The translations under genes were made by a program, and so were the position numbers. The notes beneath the pieces were generated by a model. That model was not told the DNA's origin and did not search any database. It saw only the letters and a list, made by a program, of their open reading frames with translations. This document shows positions 29,246-53,192 of a DNA stretch of 64,000 nucleotides, piece after piece. Positions within the stretch are counted from its first letter, which is position 1. Each line of letters starts with the position of its first letter. The DNA comes from an uncultured Helicobacteraceae bacterium (GTDB lineage Bacteria; Campylobacterota; Campylobacteria; Campylobacterales; Helicobacteraceae), in contig CAMWQM010000002.1 of NCBI GenBank assembly GCA_947176375.1, positions 62,001 through 126,000 on the forward strand, written 5' to 3'.

Positions 29246-30712
29246 ATGAATACAAATAATGTGTTAGAATATGACTATTCCATAGCTAAGTTATTCGTTT
29301 GGACAACTTTGATTTTTGGCATAGTTGGTATGCTAGTCGGAGTAATTATTGCTTTTCAAATGGCATATCCAGCACTAAATCACATAGCAGGTGAATATAG
29401 TATTTTTGGGAGATTAAGACCTATTCATACAAATGGTGTTATTTATGGTTTCACACTTAGTGGAATCTGGGCAGCATGGTATTATTTAGGACAAAGAGTT
29501 TTAAAAATCACTTACAATCAACACCCATTCTTAAAAATTGTGGGATTGCTTCATTTTTGGTTATATGTTGTATTAATAGCTTTAGCAGTGATTACATTAT
29601 TTGCTGGGCTTACACAATCAAAAGAATATGCTGAGTTAGTATGGCCACTTGACTTAGTAGTAGTTGTTGTATGGGTATTGTGGGGTGTTAGCCTCTTTGG
29701 AAGTATGGCTGTGAGACGAGAAAAAACACTATATATAAGTCTTTGGTATTTTATAGCTAGTTTTGTTGCTATTTCTGCTCTCTATATATTTAACAATCTT
29801 GCGATTCCTACGGCACTTGTTTCTGGTGTAGGAAGTATTTGGCATTCTGTATCACTATATGCAGGGACAAATGATGCTATGGTTCAATGGTGGTGGGGGC
29901 ATAATGCTGTTGCATTTGTATTTACCTCAGCAATTATTGGTGTTATGTATTACTTCTTGCCAAAGGAATCTGGACAACCTATATTTTCATATAAGCTTAC
30001 ATTATTTTCATTTTGGAGCTTAATGTTTGTGTATATTTGGGCTGGCGGACATCACCTTATTTATTCTACCACTCCAGATTGGGTTCAAACACTTGGCTCT
30101 GTATTTTCTGTAATTTTAATCTTGCCATCCTGGGGAACAGCTATTAATATGCTCCTTACAATGCGAGGACAATGGCATCAATTAAGAGAATCTCCTATGA
30201 TTAAATTTATGATTCTAGCTTCTACATTCTATATGCTTTCCACTTTAGAGGGACCAATTCAATCAATCAGGTCTGTAAATGCACTAGCACACTTTACTGA
30301 CTGGATTGTAGGGCATGTTCATGATGGAGTTTTGGGTTGGGTTGGATTTACAATCATCGCAGCTTGCTATCATATGACACCACGAATGTTTAAGAGAGAA
30401 ATTTATTCTAAAAAGATTATGGATATGCAATTCTGGATTATGACACTTGGTATTATCTTATACTTTTCAAGTATGTGGATAGCTGGTATTACTCAAGGTA
30501 TGATGTGGAGAGCTACTGATGAGTTTGGAAATTTATTATTCCCATTCATTGATACTGTGTCTTCATTACATTTATACTATGTAATTAGGTCTATTGCAGG
30601 AGTGTTATACTTAGTTGGATTCTTTATGTTTGTTTATAATATTATAATGACTATGATTGCGTCAAAAGAGCTTGATAAAGAGCCTCAATACGCAACTCCT
30701 ATGTCTGCTTAA
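29246..30712 (+). CDS. ccoN: cbb3-type cytochrome c oxidase subunit I
   Basis: Catalytic haem-copper subunit of the high-affinity oxygen reductase. About 12 membrane helices; histidine ligands are visible in FGRLRPIHTNGVIYGF, WWWGHNAVAF (low-spin haem/CuB region), the CuB pair AGGHHLIYS and HFTDWIVGHVHDGVLGW. Length 488 is typical. It opens the ccoNOQP operon, with an AGGAGG ribosome site. Oxygen reduction at low oxygen tension suits a microaerophile. Confidence 0.99.
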   Translation: MNTNNVLEYDYSIAKLFVWTTLIFGIVGMLVGVIIAFQMAYPALNHIAGEYSIFGRLRPIHTNGVIYGFTLSGIWAAWYYLGQRVLKITYNQHPFLKIVGLLHFWLYVVLIALAVITLFAGLTQSKEYAELVWPLDLVVVVVWVLWGVSLFGSMAVRREKTLYISLWYFIASFVAISALYIFNNLAIPTALVSGVGSIWHSVSLYAGTNDAMVQWWWGHNAVAFVFTSAIIGVMYYFLPKESGQPIFSYKLTLFSFWSLMFVYIWAGGHHLIYSTTPDWVQTLGSVFSVILILPSWGTAINMLLTMRGQWHQLRESPMIKFMILASTFYMLSTLEGPIQSIRSVNALAHFTDWIVGHVHDGVLGWVGFTIIAACYHMTPRMFKREIYSKKIMDMQFWIMTLGIILYFSSMWIAGITQGMMWRATDEFGNLLFPFIDTVSSLHLYYVIRSIAGVLYLVGFFMFVYNIIMTMIASKELDKEPQYATPMSA

Positions 30713-30722
30713 GGAGGAATAG

Positions 30723-31436
30723 ATGTTTAATTGGTTAGAAAAAAATCCATTCTTTTTCACGGTAGCTTTTTTGTTGGTATTTTCAGTGGCTGGGCTCGTA
30801 GAGATACTTCCAGGCTTTGCAAAAACTGCTAGACCTATAGAGGGATTAAAGCCTTATAGTGTGCTTGAAACTGCAGGTAGGCAAGTTTATATGAAAGAAG
30901 GTTGTTATAATTGCCATTCACAGCTCATTCGTCCATTTAAAGCAGAAACTGATAGATATGGTGAGTATAGTAAGAGTGGTGAATACGCTTATGACAGACC
31001 ATTCCTTTGGGGTTCAAAAAGAATAGGTCCAGATTTACATAGAGTTGGTGATAATAAGACTTCTGATTGGCATTCAAATCATATGTGGGAGCCAACAAGT
31101 GTAGTTCCAAATTCTATAATGCCTAGCTATAAACATAATTTTAGTAAAAATACAGATTTTGAAACTGCTTATGCAGAAGCCTATACAAATAAGGTTGTAT
31201 TTGGAGTTCCATACGATGCAGAGGGTGAAAACTCTATAAAACTTGGCACATTAGAAGAAGCTAAAGCGGAGTTTATGAAAGAAGCTGAAATAATTGTTTT
31301 AGAAATGAAAAATAAAGATATAGAAGAAGCTTTCAAAAATGGTGAAGTTAAAGAAATAGTAGCACTTATTGCATATATGAATAGTCTAGGACAAAAGAGA
31401 CGCGCTCCTGCACAAAATATACAGGCAAATAAGTAG
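30723..31436 (+). CDS. ccoO: cbb3-type cytochrome c oxidase subunit II
   Basis: Membrane-anchored monohaem cytochrome c that passes electrons to CcoN. One N-terminal membrane helix (about residues 8-30), then the haem site CYNCHSQLIRPFKAE and the conserved WGSKRIGPDLHRVG. Length 237 is near normal. It starts 11 nt after ccoN with AAGGAGG. Confidence 0.98.
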   Translation: MFNWLEKNPFFFTVAFLLVFSVAGLVEILPGFAKTARPIEGLKPYSVLETAGRQVYMKEGCYNCHSQLIRPFKAETDRYGEYSKSGEYAYDRPFLWGSKRIGPDLHRVGDNKTSDWHSNHMWEPTSVVPNSIMPSYKHNFSKNTDFETAYAEAYTNKVVFGVPYDAEGENSIKLGTLEEAKAEFMKEAEIIVLEMKNKDIEEAFKNGEVKEIVALIAYMNSLGQKRRAPAQNIQANK

Positions 31437-31445
31437 GACAAAGAT

Positions 31446-31661
31446 ATGTTAGAATTTATAATTGAAGCTAGAGGGTACATATATTTTATAGCTACTATTT
31501 TACTTGTTTTGTTTTTGTATTCATATATTTATTATATGTATAAGGTGCAAAGAAGTGGTAAAAAGAATTATGAGAAATATGCACGATTAGCTTTAGATGA
31601 TGGTATTTTAGATACACCTATTGAATCTAGAGAAATTAAACAAAAAGGGGAGGATAAATAA
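31446..31661 (+). CDS. ccoQ: cbb3 oxidase subunit CcoQ
   Basis: A 71-residue protein with a single membrane helix near the N-terminus (IYFIATILLVLFLYSYIYYM) and a charged cytoplasmic tail, placed between ccoO and ccoP. CcoQ stabilises the oxidase complex. Its stop codon overlaps the first base of ccoP. Sequence alone is weakly conserved; position decides. Confidence 0.88.
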   Translation: MLEFIIEARGYIYFIATILLVLFLYSYIYYMYKVQRSGKKNYEKYARLALDDGILDTPIESREIKQKGEDK

Positions 31662-32518
31662 TGCAATCTTTATTAAGCGATAATATGACTATAATTGCTT
31701 TGCTTGGCGCACTTGTTATTTTAATATTGACAGCTTTTGTAGTTAGCACTTATTTTAGTAAAATTAAGCATAGCAAGGCAGATGGTATTTTAACAGAAGA
31801 GGATTGGGATGGAATTAAAGAATTTAAAAATGACTTACCAATAGGCTGGGCAGCATCATTTTTATGTGTGATTATTTGGGGACTATGGTATATTTTTATA
31901 GGCTATCCATTGAATGCTTATTCACAGATTGGTGAGTATAATAAAGAAGTAATTAATCACAATAATAACTTTAAAGCTAAATGGGCTAGCCTAAGTGAAG
32001 ATGAATTAAATACTATGGGTGATAATATATTTCAAGTGCAGTGTTCTCAATGTCATGGAATCGATAAAAGTGGTATTAATGGCAAGGCAGCAGATTTGAC
32101 CAAATGGGGAAGAAGTGAGCATATAGTAGAAGTTATTTTAAAAGGTAGTAAAGGAATGGGTTATCTTGCTGAAATGCTTCCTGTTGAAGTTAGTCAAGAT
32201 GATGCTAAAAATATAGCTAATTATGTGATGGCAGAAATTTCTCTTGCGAAAGTTCCTTCAAATGCAGATTCTATTGCTAAAGGAAAAGATTTATTTGCTA
32301 TTCATTGTGTAGCTTGTCATGGTAGTGATGGCAAAGGATTAGAGGGGGTAGAAAATTATGCCCCAGATTTGACTACTTATGGAACTTATGAATTCCTCAC
32401 AGAAGTTTTAAAGCGTGGCAAAAATGGTAGTATAGGTAAAATGCCGTCTTTCACTTATGCTAATTTTGATGAATATCAAGATAAAGCTTTAAATAACTTT
32501 ATCTTATCTAATGATTAA
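31661..32518 (+). CDS. ccoP: cbb3-type oxidase diheme subunit III
   Basis: Diheme cytochrome c that takes electrons from soluble cytochrome c or the bc1 complex. Two N-terminal membrane helices (residues 9-33 and 61-82), then two class I c-type domains with haem motifs CSQCH (128-132) and CVACH (216-220) and Met regions MGYLAEMLP and KMPSF. Length 285 fits. Last core gene of ccoNOQP. Confidence 0.98.
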   Translation: MQSLLSDNMTIIALLGALVILILTAFVVSTYFSKIKHSKADGILTEEDWDGIKEFKNDLPIGWAASFLCVIIWGLWYIFIGYPLNAYSQIGEYNKEVINHNNNFKAKWASLSEDELNTMGDNIFQVQCSQCHGIDKSGINGKAADLTKWGRSEHIVEVILKGSKGMGYLAEMLPVEVSQDDAKNIANYVMAEISLAKVPSNADSIAKGKDLFAIHCVACHGSDGKGLEGVENYAPDLTTYGTYEFLTEVLKRGKNGSIGKMPSFTYANFDEYQDKALNNFILSND

Positions 32519-32848: not shown

Positions 32849-33451
32849 TTGATAATATATTTTAAGAAGATTCTGCTATTTTGCGGAATCTTATTCCACT
32901 TTTGCTATGCAAATACACTTGAAAATAATTTTGTTTTTAATGATGACTTAGTTTTTGTTGAAAAGAGTGTAGATTTTGTAGAGAAAACTTCAAAAGAGCT
33001 TTTTACCAAAACAGGTGTGAGTCTGTATGTATATATGACAGATTCTATGTCTGGTGCTCATTATAATGAATTTAAAAATAAAATTATTTCTAATTTTAAG
33101 GCTCCATATGTTGCAATAATATTAGTAAAAAATGATAAAAAAATTGATATTGCTACTTCAAGTGATGATTTAATAGATAAGAAAAAGGTCTATTGGGAGT
33201 ATATGGTGCCTTTGCTACCTAGCAAAGATAGTGAGATTACAAATCAAGTCCTCTCTGCTGTTGTTTTGAATGGTTATATTGAGAGCGTGGATTTAATAGC
33301 AGATAAATTTAAAGTTAAGATAGAACATAATATCCCAAAAGATGAAAAAGGTGCAAAAGCCGTAGCACAGCTAATCCTTTATATAATGTTATTTTCTATG
33401 TTAGGTTTATTTTTCGTATTTTATTTTTATAAAAGAAAGGGAAGCAAGTGA
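32849..33451 (+). CDS. exported, C-terminally anchored TPM-like protein
   Basis: A 200-residue protein with an N-terminal signal sequence (IIYFKKILLFCGILFHFCYA), a domain resembling the TPM fold with TGVSLYVYMTDSMSG, APYVAIILVKNDKKIDIATS, and a C-terminal membrane helix (about 173-194) followed by KRKGSK. The start is TTG at 32849, two bases after the preceding stop, with no visible ribosome site, suggesting coupled translation. Its place between ccoP and fixH suggests a role in cbb3 assembly; that is inference. Confidence 0.75.
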   Translation: MIIYFKKILLFCGILFHFCYANTLENNFVFNDDLVFVEKSVDFVEKTSKELFTKTGVSLYVYMTDSMSGAHYNEFKNKIISNFKAPYVAIILVKNDKKIDIATSSDDLIDKKKVYWEYMVPLLPSKDSEITNQVLSAVVLNGYIESVDLIADKFKVKIEHNIPKDEKGAKAVAQLILYIMLFSMLGLFFVFYFYKRKGSK

Positions 33452-33996
33452 AGGATACTAAAAACTTTTGGCCATTTTGTATAGCCTTGTTTATGACGAT
33501 TATGGTATGTATGATAATTTTGACAATCTACATCTCAATAAAATATAAGCCAGATAATGATAACGCCTATTTTTCTAGCAGAGAGATTGTCGATAAGGAG
33601 ATTAATACTATTTTGCAGCAGCAGCAAGAATTAGAAGAGAAATATGATTTTTATATTGTTAGTAATGATGTGCAGATTCCACTACAAAGGAAAGTAACTA
33701 GAAAGTCAAATCCATTAGAATTAAAACTTGGAGATAGTCTAAATTTAAATCTTAAAGTTATCACAAAAGATAATTCTATTGACAATACATCGTTTAAAGA
33801 TTTCACTGCTAGAGCCTATATTACAAGATTTGCAGATTCTAAAGATGATATAGATATTGGATTGCTAGAATCTAAAAATAATGAATTTTTTATTTCAAAT
33901 ATAAAGCTAAAGCAAGGCGATTGGAAGCTTTTAGTGGAATTTATCATAGATGATAAAAAAGCATATTTTGAGTATAGAATCTATGTAAAAGGATAG
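33448..33996 (+). CDS. FixH-like cbb3 oxidase assembly protein
   Basis: A 182-residue protein with one N-terminal membrane helix (about 7-30) and a periplasmic beta-rich domain ending GLLESKNNEFFISNIKLKQG and DWKLLVEFIIDDKKAYF, which fits FixH/CcoH proteins needed for oxidase maturation and CcoN interaction. It starts at GTG, overlapping the previous gene by 4 nt. Here fixH closes the cco operon; fixG and fixI are not adjacent. Confidence 0.78.
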   Translation: MKDTKNFWPFCIALFMTIMVCMIILTIYISIKYKPDNDNAYFSSREIVDKEINTILQQQQELEEKYDFYIVSNDVQIPLQRKVTRKSNPLELKLGDSLNLNLKVITKDNSIDNTSFKDFTARAYITRFADSKDDIDIGLLESKNNEFFISNIKLKQGDWKLLVEFIIDDKKAYFEYRIYVKG

Positions 33997-34004
33997 AAGC
34001 AAAA

Positions 34005-34940
34005 ATGCATTATAGGGGGGGGGTAGCAGTCATTATTCCTATGTTTAATGAGGAGCAAAGCATAGGAGCAGTATTAGATGATTTAAAGATTCTAAAAGAA
34101 GCTAAAATTTTTGTATTTGATAATAACTCAAATGATAATTCAGCCAGTATAGTAAAAACCAAACAAAATGAATTTAGTAATATTTCTCTACTTACCACCA
34201 CAAAGCAAGGTAAGGGTGCTGTGATTAGAGAGGCTTTTAGCATAATTGATGCAGAAATTTATGTGATAATTGATGCCGATGGTGAACACGATGTCTCAAT
34301 CTTGCCTAATGCACTAGATTTTTTCAAAATAAATCATCTTGATATGCTAAATATTGCAAGAAATGGCGATAAAAGTCTTTATCGTAAATATCATAGTTTT
34401 GGCAACTGGTTTCTTACAAAATTTATTCAAATATTTTTTGGAAGGAAAATTAATGATGCTTTAAGTGGATATAGGATTTTTAACAAAGCTTTTGTGAAGA
34501 GTTTTCCTGCAGAATCTAGTGGTTTTGAAGTGGAAAGTGAGCTTACTATTTTTGCCTTGCAACAAAATTTAAGAATCGATGAAATTAAAGCAAATTATAA
34601 GTCTCGCCACAAAAACAGCCATTCCAAGCTCCACACATTTAAAGATGGTTTTAAAATCGCTCTAATGATTATGAATCTAATTTTTAGCGAAAAACCGCTT
34701 GTAGCATTTGGAATACTTAGTTTAATTAGCTTATTTTGTGGGATTATTCTTGGAGTTCCGATAGTTTTGGAGTTTTTAGAGACTTCGAAAGTGCCTAGAT
34801 TCCCTACATTATTTTTATGTATAGGGCTTGGAGTGATTGCTGTGATTTTATTTATAAGCGGGTTTTTAGCACATCTAATTACACGAAATATTAAGCAAAT
34901 AAGGCGAATTACTTACAATAGTTATAATAAAAGTTTTTAA
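34005..34940 (+). CDS. GtrB-like polyprenyl-phosphate glycosyltransferase with G9 tract
   Basis: Family 2 glycosyltransferase of 311 residues. The start VAVIIPMFNEEQSIG, the acidic DADGEHD motif (a DXD-like metal site) and two C-terminal membrane helices (about 236-258 and 267-292, ending HLITRNIKQIRR) match GtrB/DPM1-type enzymes that load a sugar on undecaprenyl phosphate on the inner face of the membrane. Nine G's at 34015-34023 fill codons 4-7 (MHYRGGVAV), so a one-base slip would close the frame; the sequence as given is open. The next genes are GtrA-like and a large membrane protein. The donor sugar is unknown. Confidence 0.9.
   Translation: MHYRGGVAVIIPMFNEEQSIGAVLDDLKILKEAKIFVFDNNSNDNSASIVKTKQNEFSNISLLTTTKQGKGAVIREAFSIIDAEIYVIIDADGEHDVSILPNALDFFKINHLDMLNIARNGDKSLYRKYHSFGNWFLTKFIQIFFGRKINDALSGYRIFNKAFVKSFPAESSGFEVESELTIFALQQNLRIDEIKANYKSRHKNSHSKLHTFKDGFKIALMIMNLIFSEKPLVAFGILSLISLFCGIILGVPIVLEFLETSKVPRFPTLFLCIGLGVIAVILFISGFLAHLITRNIKQIRRITYNSYNKSF
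34015..34023 (+). repeat. G9 homopolymer in the coding start of the gtrB-like gene
   Basis: Nine consecutive G's lie ten bases after the ATG. Tracts of this kind in helicobacters and campylobacters change length by slipped-strand copying and switch genes on and off. Seen directly; switching is inferred. Confidence 0.85.
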
Positions 34941-34951
34941 AAAGGCTCTTT

Positions 34952-35320
34952 TTGGCTAATTTAGCAAAATATTTTATTATTGGTGGAATTTTAACTCTCC
35001 TTGAGTGGGTAATATTTTATGTTTTGGTTTATATTATTGGTTTGCATTATATTGCTTCATCTTTTATTGCTTTTATTTTGATTTCAGCACTTGGAATCTT
35101 TGTATATAAAAAAATGATTTTTGGAGATTCTAAATTTAGCTTCAAGGCTGAGGTTTTAGCAATCTATTTGATTAATAGTATTGGTATTGTGTTAAATACT
35201 TTAATTTTGTGGATTTTGGTTGATAAATTTAGCGCTGAAGTAATGATTTCAAAGATTATTGCATCATTTATTGTTGCATTTTATGGCTTTTTTGCTAGAA
35301 AGATTTGTGTTTATAAATAA
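34952..35320 (+). CDS. GtrA-family membrane protein
   Basis: A 122-residue protein with four membrane helices and the GtrA pattern: KYFIIGGILTLLEWVIFYVL, then GIFVYKKMIFGDSK and a last helix ending FYGFFARKICVYK. GtrA proteins are thought to flip sugar-linked undecaprenyl phosphate across the membrane. The start is TTG at 34952, 11 nt after the GtrB-like gene. It links the loading enzyme and the large membrane transferase in a Gtr-type set. Confidence 0.88.
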   Translation: MANLAKYFIIGGILTLLEWVIFYVLVYIIGLHYIASSFIAFILISALGIFVYKKMIFGDSKFSFKAEVLAIYLINSIGIVLNTLILWILVDKFSAEVMISKIIASFIVAFYGFFARKICVYK

Positions 35321-35331
35321 AGGGAGAGCAA

Positions 35332-37023
35332 ATGCAGACTTTGATAATTTACTCCATTATGGCATTGTTATTTTACCTTTCTTATAAATTATTTTTTAAG
35401 ATTTTAGAGTGTTTGCCAAAATTAAATTCCAAAATAATAGATTCTAATTCCAAAGATATTTTAGATTCTAAAGTAGATTTCAAATCAAATTTAGATTCTA
35501 AAACTAAAGCAGACTTTGCACTAGATTCCAAATCCAAAATAGATTCTACTTTAAAATTAGATTCTAAAGTAGTCTCTAAAACCAGCCTAACACAAAGAAC
35601 ATTAGAGCTAAAAGATATAATCTTTCTTATTTCTAGTGCATTGTTAATTTTAGGAATTTGTGCTTTTACATTTTATCTTGGGTTTCCAGGTTTTTTGATT
35701 GATGGAGATATTTTTAAAGCATTAGATTTAAATAAGCAAAATTTTGCTCCTGTAATTACTGCTTATGTGCTTGAAATTCTTTATTTTATATTTGGAAAGC
35801 ATACATATTATTTATTTTTAATCAACTTGATTACATTTTATGTTGGAATTTATTTTTTGATAGCTGGATTTTACTTGCGATTTCGCTCGTATTTTGCTTT
35901 GTTTTTAATGTTTCCACTTTTTATTGGCAATATTTATTTTAGTCATTTTGTCTCTATGAATTATGTTGCAATGGCTAATATGATATTTTGTGCAGGTAGT
36001 TTGGTGCTTTTTTGCATTCTTGTGCATCCAAAAACTAGGCTTTTAAAATTACTTTATATTTTTGTTGCGATATTACTATTTTTGGCTATTCTTTGGAGAC
36101 ATAATGCGATTTTTAGCGTTTTCCCACTTTGTTTTATCCTTATTTATTTACTTTTAGAAGATAGAGGCTTAAGTAAGAAAGCTTTTATAAAGCTATATGC
36201 TAAGGGCATTGTGATTTGTGTGTTTGTGTGTTTATTTGTTGTTATTGTGATTCCAAAGATTTTAACTACAAATTCTCTTTCCTCGCCATCTCATCATATA
36301 TTTTTGCATCAAATTGTAGGAACTTGTATAAAGAATGATGATAGCTCTTGTATTAAGAATGAATGGTATAATATAGAGCATAATTGGGAGAATGCAAAGA
36401 GAATTTATTTAGAAAATCCATTTTTTGCAGATCCTATGAATGGAATCTTTAGTTCAGGTGAGATTAATGGGCTTTTTTTATCGTGGTTGAAAGTAATAAC
36501 TAAATATCCTCTTAATTATTTAGAATATCAAAGTGGTTTTTTTAGATATATGTGGTTTGAAAGCCCATTTAAAGATTATAGAGATAAACATAAACATTCT
36601 TATACATACTCTTTAATATTATCTCCAAAAGAGATTCAAGCTAAAGTAGAAGAATCAAATATTAATACTTTAAATAAATTTCCAATAAATGAATATAGTA
36701 TAAGTTTTAGCAAAGCAAGAGAGAAAATATATACTTTTTTATATGAAAATAGAATTATTTTTGGGAATATTGTTGGAGTTAGTATGAGTTTTATTTTAAT
36801 GATTGTTAGTTTAATTTTAATATGTTTTAGAAAGTATCGCAATAATTTATTGTTATTTAGTTTTAGTTTTAGTTTTGCCGCATTTTTTAGTGCTATTTTT
36901 ATAGCTGGTTTTAGTCCTGTGATTTACCCTAGATATATGTCACCTATTTTGCCTCTAGCTCTTATGTCTTTGATTGGATTTATTGCTTTTGTTTGCGATA
37001 GATTGAGTAGAAAAGAAGTATAA
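35332..37023 (+). CDS. large multi-pass membrane protein, GT-C/GtrC-like candidate
   Basis: A 563-residue protein with about ten hydrophobic segments after one N-terminal helix. Between the first and second helix (about 35430-35590) lies a low-complexity linker of repeated LDSK and IDS units, encoded by copies of TAGATTCTAAA. A large extracytoplasmic loop (SSPSHHIFLHQIVGTCIKND) precedes more helices. Size, topology and place after gtrB- and gtrA-like genes suggest the strain-specific transferase (GtrC role) that moves a lipid-linked sugar to a surface polymer. I do not recognise its family by sequence, so the role is inference. Confidence 0.75.
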   Translation: MQTLIIYSIMALLFYLSYKLFFKILECLPKLNSKIIDSNSKDILDSKVDFKSNLDSKTKADFALDSKSKIDSTLKLDSKVVSKTSLTQRTLELKDIIFLISSALLILGICAFTFYLGFPGFLIDGDIFKALDLNKQNFAPVITAYVLEILYFIFGKHTYYLFLINLITFYVGIYFLIAGFYLRFRSYFALFLMFPLFIGNIYFSHFVSMNYVAMANMIFCAGSLVLFCILVHPKTRLLKLLYIFVAILLFLAILWRHNAIFSVFPLCFILIYLLLEDRGLSKKAFIKLYAKGIVICVFVCLFVVIVIPKILTTNSLSSPSHHIFLHQIVGTCIKNDDSSCIKNEWYNIEHNWENAKRIYLENPFFADPMNGIFSSGEINGLFLSWLKVITKYPLNYLEYQSGFFRYMWFESPFKDYRDKHKHSYTYSLILSPKEIQAKVEESNINTLNKFPINEYSISFSKAREKIYTFLYENRIIFGNIVGVSMSFILMIVSLILICFRKYRNNLLLFSFSFSFAAFFSAIFIAGFSPVIYPRYMSPILPLALMSLIGFIAFVCDRLSRKEV

Positions 37024-52691: not shown

Positions 52692-53192
52692 CTTTTTTAA
52701 AAATTTTAAAATTTATTCTATTTTGTTATTTAATAGTATGGATTTTATAAGCAATTAAAGTAATTAATAAAGTTAATTTTTTAAAGTTTTTCTAATTTAT
52801 TTTTATATTTTATTAAGCTATTTTCTAAAATCTCTTTTATTTTATTCATTTTCTCTTTGTTAAGAGCATTTCTAAAATATTGTTATTATTGTGTAAATCT
52901 TTTAACCTTTTTATCCTAATTTTTTTACCTCTAAAACTTTTCTCAAACTTCCTACTTTTAAGCTAACTTTAATGGGGGGGGGTAGAATGCTATTTTGATT
53001 TTAAGTTTATGTTTGGAATCTAAAAGTGATTTTAAAATTTAAGAGTGCAGGGAGGCTTTAAGTTAAATCTATAATTTAGGGAGACTTATTTTAATAATTT
53101 GGAATCTAAATATTATGAGATAAAAATCACTTTACTAGTTTAATTGATTGCTAATTCTAGAATCTAAAATAATTATTTAATGGAGCGATATA
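52692..53192. other. gap with a G9 tract and a possible gene remnant
   Basis: Between the tRNAs and the first outer-membrane protein gene. It carries nine G's at 52974-52982. On the minus strand an open run (52846-53038) crosses the tract and reads KIKIAFYPPPIKVSLKVGSL and RIKRLKDLHNNNNILEMLLT; after a stop and frame change MNKIKEILENSLIKYKNKLE follows. No start codon opens it, so it is at best a broken gene. Confidence 0.45.
52974..52982 (+). repeat. G9 homopolymer in a gap
   Basis: Nine consecutive G's about 210 nt before the outer-membrane protein start. In helicobacters such tracts vary in length and can alter expression of neighbouring surface genes, or mark a broken phase-variable gene. 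Confidence 0.85.

Follow-up and report, generated by a model that had tools for sequence, protein, structure and literature searches.

A putative mobile, phase-variable Gtr-type glycosylation cassette behind fixH in an uncultured Helicobacteraceae bacterium

In the 64,000-nucleotide stretch of DNA analyzed here (hereafter "the window"), which comes from an uncultured Helicobacteraceae bacterium, three forward-strand genes stand in a row at positions 34005-37023, directly behind fixH, where an original prediction made from the sequence had placed them. The first (34005..34940, ATG start) encodes a 311-aa GT2 polyprenyl-phosphate glycosyltransferase (GtrB-like/AglJ-like, PF00535), the second (34952..35320, TTG start) a 122-aa GtrA flippase-like protein (PF04138), and the third (35332..37023, ATG start) a 563-aa protein in the GtrC position that is assigned as a GT-C-fold membrane glycosyltransferase from its structure model and motifs. 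Read from the sequence, AAAAAGG precedes the TTG of the GtrA gene (34952) and GGGAG precedes the ATG of the GT-C gene (35332). The left border is formed by fixH (33448..33996, forward strand, PF05751 (FixH)), with ccoNOQP (29246-32518) upstream of both fixH and the cassette, and the GT2 gene starts 8 nt past the fixH stop. Comparison within the genus revealed that fixH is conserved and that everything 3' of it changes. No GATC occurs within 200 bases upstream of the GT2 start, and no LPS genes were found near the cassette. The neighbours in the window are core metabolic genes and viral contigs yielded no relative of the third gene, which agrees with the expectation of a cassette without phage genes.

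The GT2 protein matched PF00535 in Pfam (2.7e-17), a GtrB-like family in PHROGs (2.3e-18) and, in NCBIfam, TIGR04182 AglJ (4.2e-50), to which it aligns nearly full-length, yet it is not a member of that equivalog, since its score of 170.8 bits falls below the 325-bit cut-off. AglJ is an enzyme of archaeal S-layer N-glycosylation. Relatives in the PDB include ArnC and DPMS, which act with polyprenyl phosphate, and two C-terminal transmembrane helices span residues 225-243 and 269-287. By family, by these relatives and by its C-terminal helices, the GT2 protein is thus predicted to be of the GtrB-like polyprenyl-phosphate type. The GtrA-like protein, with four transmembrane helices, matched PF04138 above the gathering score (4.3e-12) and a GtrA-like family in PHROGs (1.9e-5); the PHROG matches of both proteins are GtrB-like and GtrA-like phage morons.

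The 563-aa protein had no match in Pfam, NCBIfam or PHROGs, and a PDB search by sequence profile gave no relative, so that its assignment draws on a structure model and on conserved residues. The AlphaFold2 model was built from a 14-sequence alignment and reached a mean pLDDT of only 70 and a pTM of 0.73. Its top Foldseek match was ArnT (E 4.8e-3), and in VIA-align 2 the leading 33 of the rows listed all belonged to the GT-C superfamily (Z of 13.0 for Pmt1-Pmt2, 12.8 for AftB, 12.6 for ArnT, 11.0 for ALG3, 10.3 for EmbA-EmbB and 9.4 for PglB), with unrelated proteins appearing from Z 6.7 down. Helical models often reach high structural scores by chance, but so uniform a list is hard to explain otherwise, and we therefore take the protein as a polytopic GT-C glycosyltransferase, its activity being predicted from the model. 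Among 16 Helicobacter GT-C sequences, L116-G117-x-P119-G120, D126, P140, R256-H257-N258 and R534-Y535-M536-S537 are invariant, giving an invariant Asp126 after LGxPG as well as invariant LWRHNAI and RYMS motifs. The likeness to ArnT, Pmt and AftB lies in the predicted fold (Z 12.6-13.0) and in the invariant Asp early in the core, whereas identity in the structural alignments is ~6-14% and there is no common Pfam family. Structure prediction had been proposed as the check on this third protein, and the GT-C fold argues against an unrelated family; the Gtr-type anatomy originally predicted is thus upheld by family matches for GT2 and GtrA and by the structure model for the third protein.

On this anatomy, the GT2 enzyme would load a hexose onto undecaprenyl phosphate on the cytoplasmic side of the inner membrane, GtrA would assist flipping of the lipid-linked sugar, and the GT-C enzyme would pass the sugar to a periplasmic glycan, most likely of LPS type. 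The same enzymes and switch could instead serve a protein or a non-LPS envelope polymer rather than LPS O-antigen, an acceptor that we regard as possible but rather unlikely: the GT2 protein scores best with AglJ, and the best structural matches of the GT-C model include protein O-mannosyltransferases and oligosaccharyltransferases, but the GT-C fold is uninformative on the acceptor, and ArnT, a lipid A enzyme, matches equally well. Moreover, GtrA-GT2 pairs are best known in O-antigen modification (PMC3688519).

Most GT-C relatives carry an extra N-terminal region of ~150-190 residues, which is missing from the window protein and whose place is occupied by a low-complexity Asp-Ser-Lys repeat stretch (35419..35595, forward strand, AGATTCTAAA-like repeats). 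Together with the pLDDT of about 30 at residues 21-88 of the model, this could suggest a decaying or partly redundant cassette, in which the N-terminal domain has been lost to the repeats and function is reduced or gone. We consider decay improbable, however, because both copies in genome G129 and a Verrucomicrobia homologue are also without the region, yet keep the core, and because in the window the core motifs are intact and all three frames are open.

The first gene of the cassette carries a candidate switch. As originally predicted, a tract of exactly nine G (34015..34023, forward strand) lies inside codons 4-7 of the GT2 gene, where the deposited sequence, from the start codon on, reads ATG CAT TAT AGG GGG GGG GTA. 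The frame is open at G9 and closed at modelled G8 and G10, so that only one of the three tract phases yields a full-length GT2 ORF. The window has two places with a run of 8 or more G, whereas shuffling it gives an expectation of 0.14 matches. Genome-wide, the window's G9 is not unique: across 1.8 Mb, 59 G-runs reach a length of 9 or more, which points to an organism with many contingency-like tracts; one genome represents this organism for tract length. The original prediction further held that the tract would switch the whole set. Direct control of the GT2 frame stands, but control of the whole set is unproven, and "switches donor supply" is the better wording, because the GtrA and GT-C genes keep their own start codons. 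Without the donor-making GT2, the pathway would fall silent, unless another GT2 substitutes.

Tracts of 9-14 G were found at or in the 5' end of the GT2 gene in 12 of 14 loci outside the window, located either upstream of the residue that aligns with residue 1, at distances of ~143, 79, 60 or 50 bases, or inside GT2 between residues ~57 and 60; at the other two loci, the G-run is broken up (L071) or there is no G tract (L072). As deposited, the GT2 frame is closed in eight loci, where it opens in one neighbouring phase, and open in the window, L073 and L076; the GT2 of L070 is interrupted by an in-frame stop, and L087 lies at a contig edge and is unreadable. At every readable locus, a single tract phase joins an upstream ATG to the GT2 core. 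The relatives' loci hold 26 tracts of at least 9 in 271 kb, or about one per 10 kb; finding them in the 5' region of a single gene at 12 of 14 loci greatly exceeds this background, with the qualification that related loci are not independent. Tract lengths in the H. bilis group are 13, 13, 14 and 13. L073 and L086 have GT2 cores of identical protein sequence, and in their alignment one G is the sole indel over the first 470 columns. Four stand-alone GT-C genes (L079, L080, L081 and L082) have a poly-G/poly-C tract of their own between the N-terminal region and the GT-C core, with two frames open and two closed.

That the window tract is an ordinary homopolymer in an AT-rich genome, with no regulatory role and a cassette constitutively on, would fit the open deposited GT2 frame, the many other G9 tracts genome-wide and the two loci without an intact tract, but is very improbable given that G-runs of such length are far above chance, that tracts recur at several positions in the 5' end of a homologous gene with frames both closed and open, and that close relatives differ by one G. 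The tract positions in relatives and the 13/14 difference in the H. bilis group instead support a G9 tract placed for translational phase variation of GT2. Slippage in G9 would shift the GT2 frame, and cells would then alternate between lipid-linked sugar on and off. The GT2 tree is poorly resolved and thus gives no count of independent tract origins; judged by tract position and flanks, gut Helicobacter appear to have gained switches on the cassette at several places.

Other repeats and tracts occur in and around these genes. In-frame inserts lie between GT2 residues 57 and 60 in L071, L073, L076, L077, L086 and L087 (genera g5 and g10), several of them with repeated peptides (e.g., CHIERSEISNxESKxDFS), and are probably translated interspersed repeats. 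In the window, the Asp-Ser-Lys repeats of the GT-C gene are translated from the AGATTCTAAA motif, and TGGAATCT and TAGAATCT are 16-21 times over-represented. TAGAATCTA has 1110 copies in the window's genome versus 20 for the reversed control and 8587 versus 118 in genome G030, and is not above control in genus g6; it may be an uptake-like or self-spreading motif, and a literature search found no paper on it. A second, non-coding G9 tract (52974-52982, in the context TTTTAAGCTAACTTTAAT-G9-TAGAAT) lies ~210 bp ahead of a gene that probably encodes an outer-membrane protein. L127 and L142 have the same arrangement ahead of genes, a pattern suggestive of transcriptional phase variation via a promoter spacer.

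Of 121 Helicobacteraceae genomes, counting that of the window, 17 have the GT-C family and 13 have the GT2. Relatives of the third gene in genome contigs were recovered by an alignment-based scan, a single-sequence search having returned none. The cassette was found in 12 other Helicobacteraceae genomes from three other genera, with H. bilis, H. cinaedi, H. canis, H. marmotae and H. labetoulli among the named relatives; its GT-C and GT2 were in none of the four other genomes of the window's own genus. An all-against-all ORF comparison across genera revealed only GT2, GtrA and GT-C in common, with flanks that differ save for one unrelated ORF pair, which indicates that the cassette moves as a unit; GT2 identity reaches 92-95% between some members of genera g5 and g10. 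The order GT2-GtrA-GT-C is that of the window and its relatives. The set is not obligatory, as four genomes have a GT-C gene with no detectable GT2 or GtrA alongside. In a Verrucomicrobia MAG, a GT2 gene directly precedes the GT-C relative and no GtrA was detected, an arrangement that supports a putative functional pair of GT2 and GT-C. Genome G129 holds two cassette copies (L074 and L075) with the same GT2, GtrA and tract, but their GT-C proteins diverge after a common N-terminus, a pattern that resembles an exchange of the specificity part.

The place behind fixH is also of interest in sister species. Three of the four other genomes of the genus have a G9 tract as well, 19 to 29 nt past the fixH stop (L110 6794-6802, L111 6594-6602 and L109 8539-8547), at the start of a different gene, which encodes a polytopic membrane protein of ~530 aa with its frame closed at G9. 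This protein has no Pfam match and its profile did not match the window GT-C profile; its family has several copies in many Helicobacteraceae genomes, with up to 9 matches per genome. In 20 genomes of other genera, no tract was found close to the 3' end of fixH. For the 5 bases before and 6 after the tract, window and L110 agree at 8 of 11 positions (controls at most 7), and L109 and L111 at 7 of 11, which the best control also reaches. Over longer flanks, the window tract ranks 18th to 25th of 30 and does not stand out among the other tracts of the genome, and descent of window and sister tracts from one inherited tract was not supported. Separately, a G13 run lies upstream of an autotransporter gene near fixH in genome G001 (L108 6488-6500). 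The fixH-adjacent place might be a contingency slot of the genus, in which a G9 tract 18-29 nt past the stop is kept and the gene is exchanged; more broadly, a mobile cassette might repeatedly gain or capture a switch on whichever gene is upstream. We put this forward tentatively, as a doubtful proposal.

Taken together, we read the locus as a mobile, phase-variable Gtr-type glycosylation cassette, with a probability of about 0.8, in which enzymatic roles, sugar, acceptor and switching are all predicted. In the gtrABC operons of Salmonella, Shigella and phages, GtrA is a flippase, GtrB a bactoprenol glycosyltransferase and GtrC a specific membrane transferase (PMC3688519, PMC2909390), and a Dam/OxyR phase-variable promoter lies upstream in 43 of 59 Salmonella gtr operons (PMC3688519). 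The cassette has in common with them the three-gene logic, a GtrC that is diverse between loci, horizontal spread and phase variation, the latter predicted here. It differs in gene order (B-A-C rather than A-B-C), in showing no phage or prophage context where gtrABC is phage-linked, in a predicted switch by a homopolymer in the GT2 coding sequence rather than by Dam/OxyR promoter methylation, and in a GtrC-position protein that has no family match. Hence, the cassette would work in a Gtr-like manner but fails several defining features of phage-borne gtrABC, and we file it as a variant.

Homopolymer switches on surface-modifying genes have precedents in this group, such as the poly-G/poly-C phase-variable glycosyltransferase HCAN_0101 of H. 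canadensis (PMC2823697) and the poly-G switched surface-modifying genes of Campylobacter in the PhasomeIt catalogue (PMC6321876). The likeness is a slipped-strand homopolymer switch within the coding sequence of a gene for a glycosyltransferase or another surface-modifying function, whereas the tract described here belongs to the gene for the first enzyme of a predicted, self-contained lipid-linked sugar pathway that appears to move between genera. Among the papers covered by the literature search, none joins GtrA, Helicobacter and phase variation in the way of this cassette.

If this reading is right, enterohepatic Helicobacter would hold a chromosomal, non-phage counterpart of serotype conversion, with the switch at several positions of one pathway, and the cassette would be a testable case of convergent contingency-locus evolution. 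In species such as H. bilis and H. cinaedi, it would also be a candidate source of variable envelope glycans, and its GT-C proteins, for which Pfam has no entry, would form a family open to assay.
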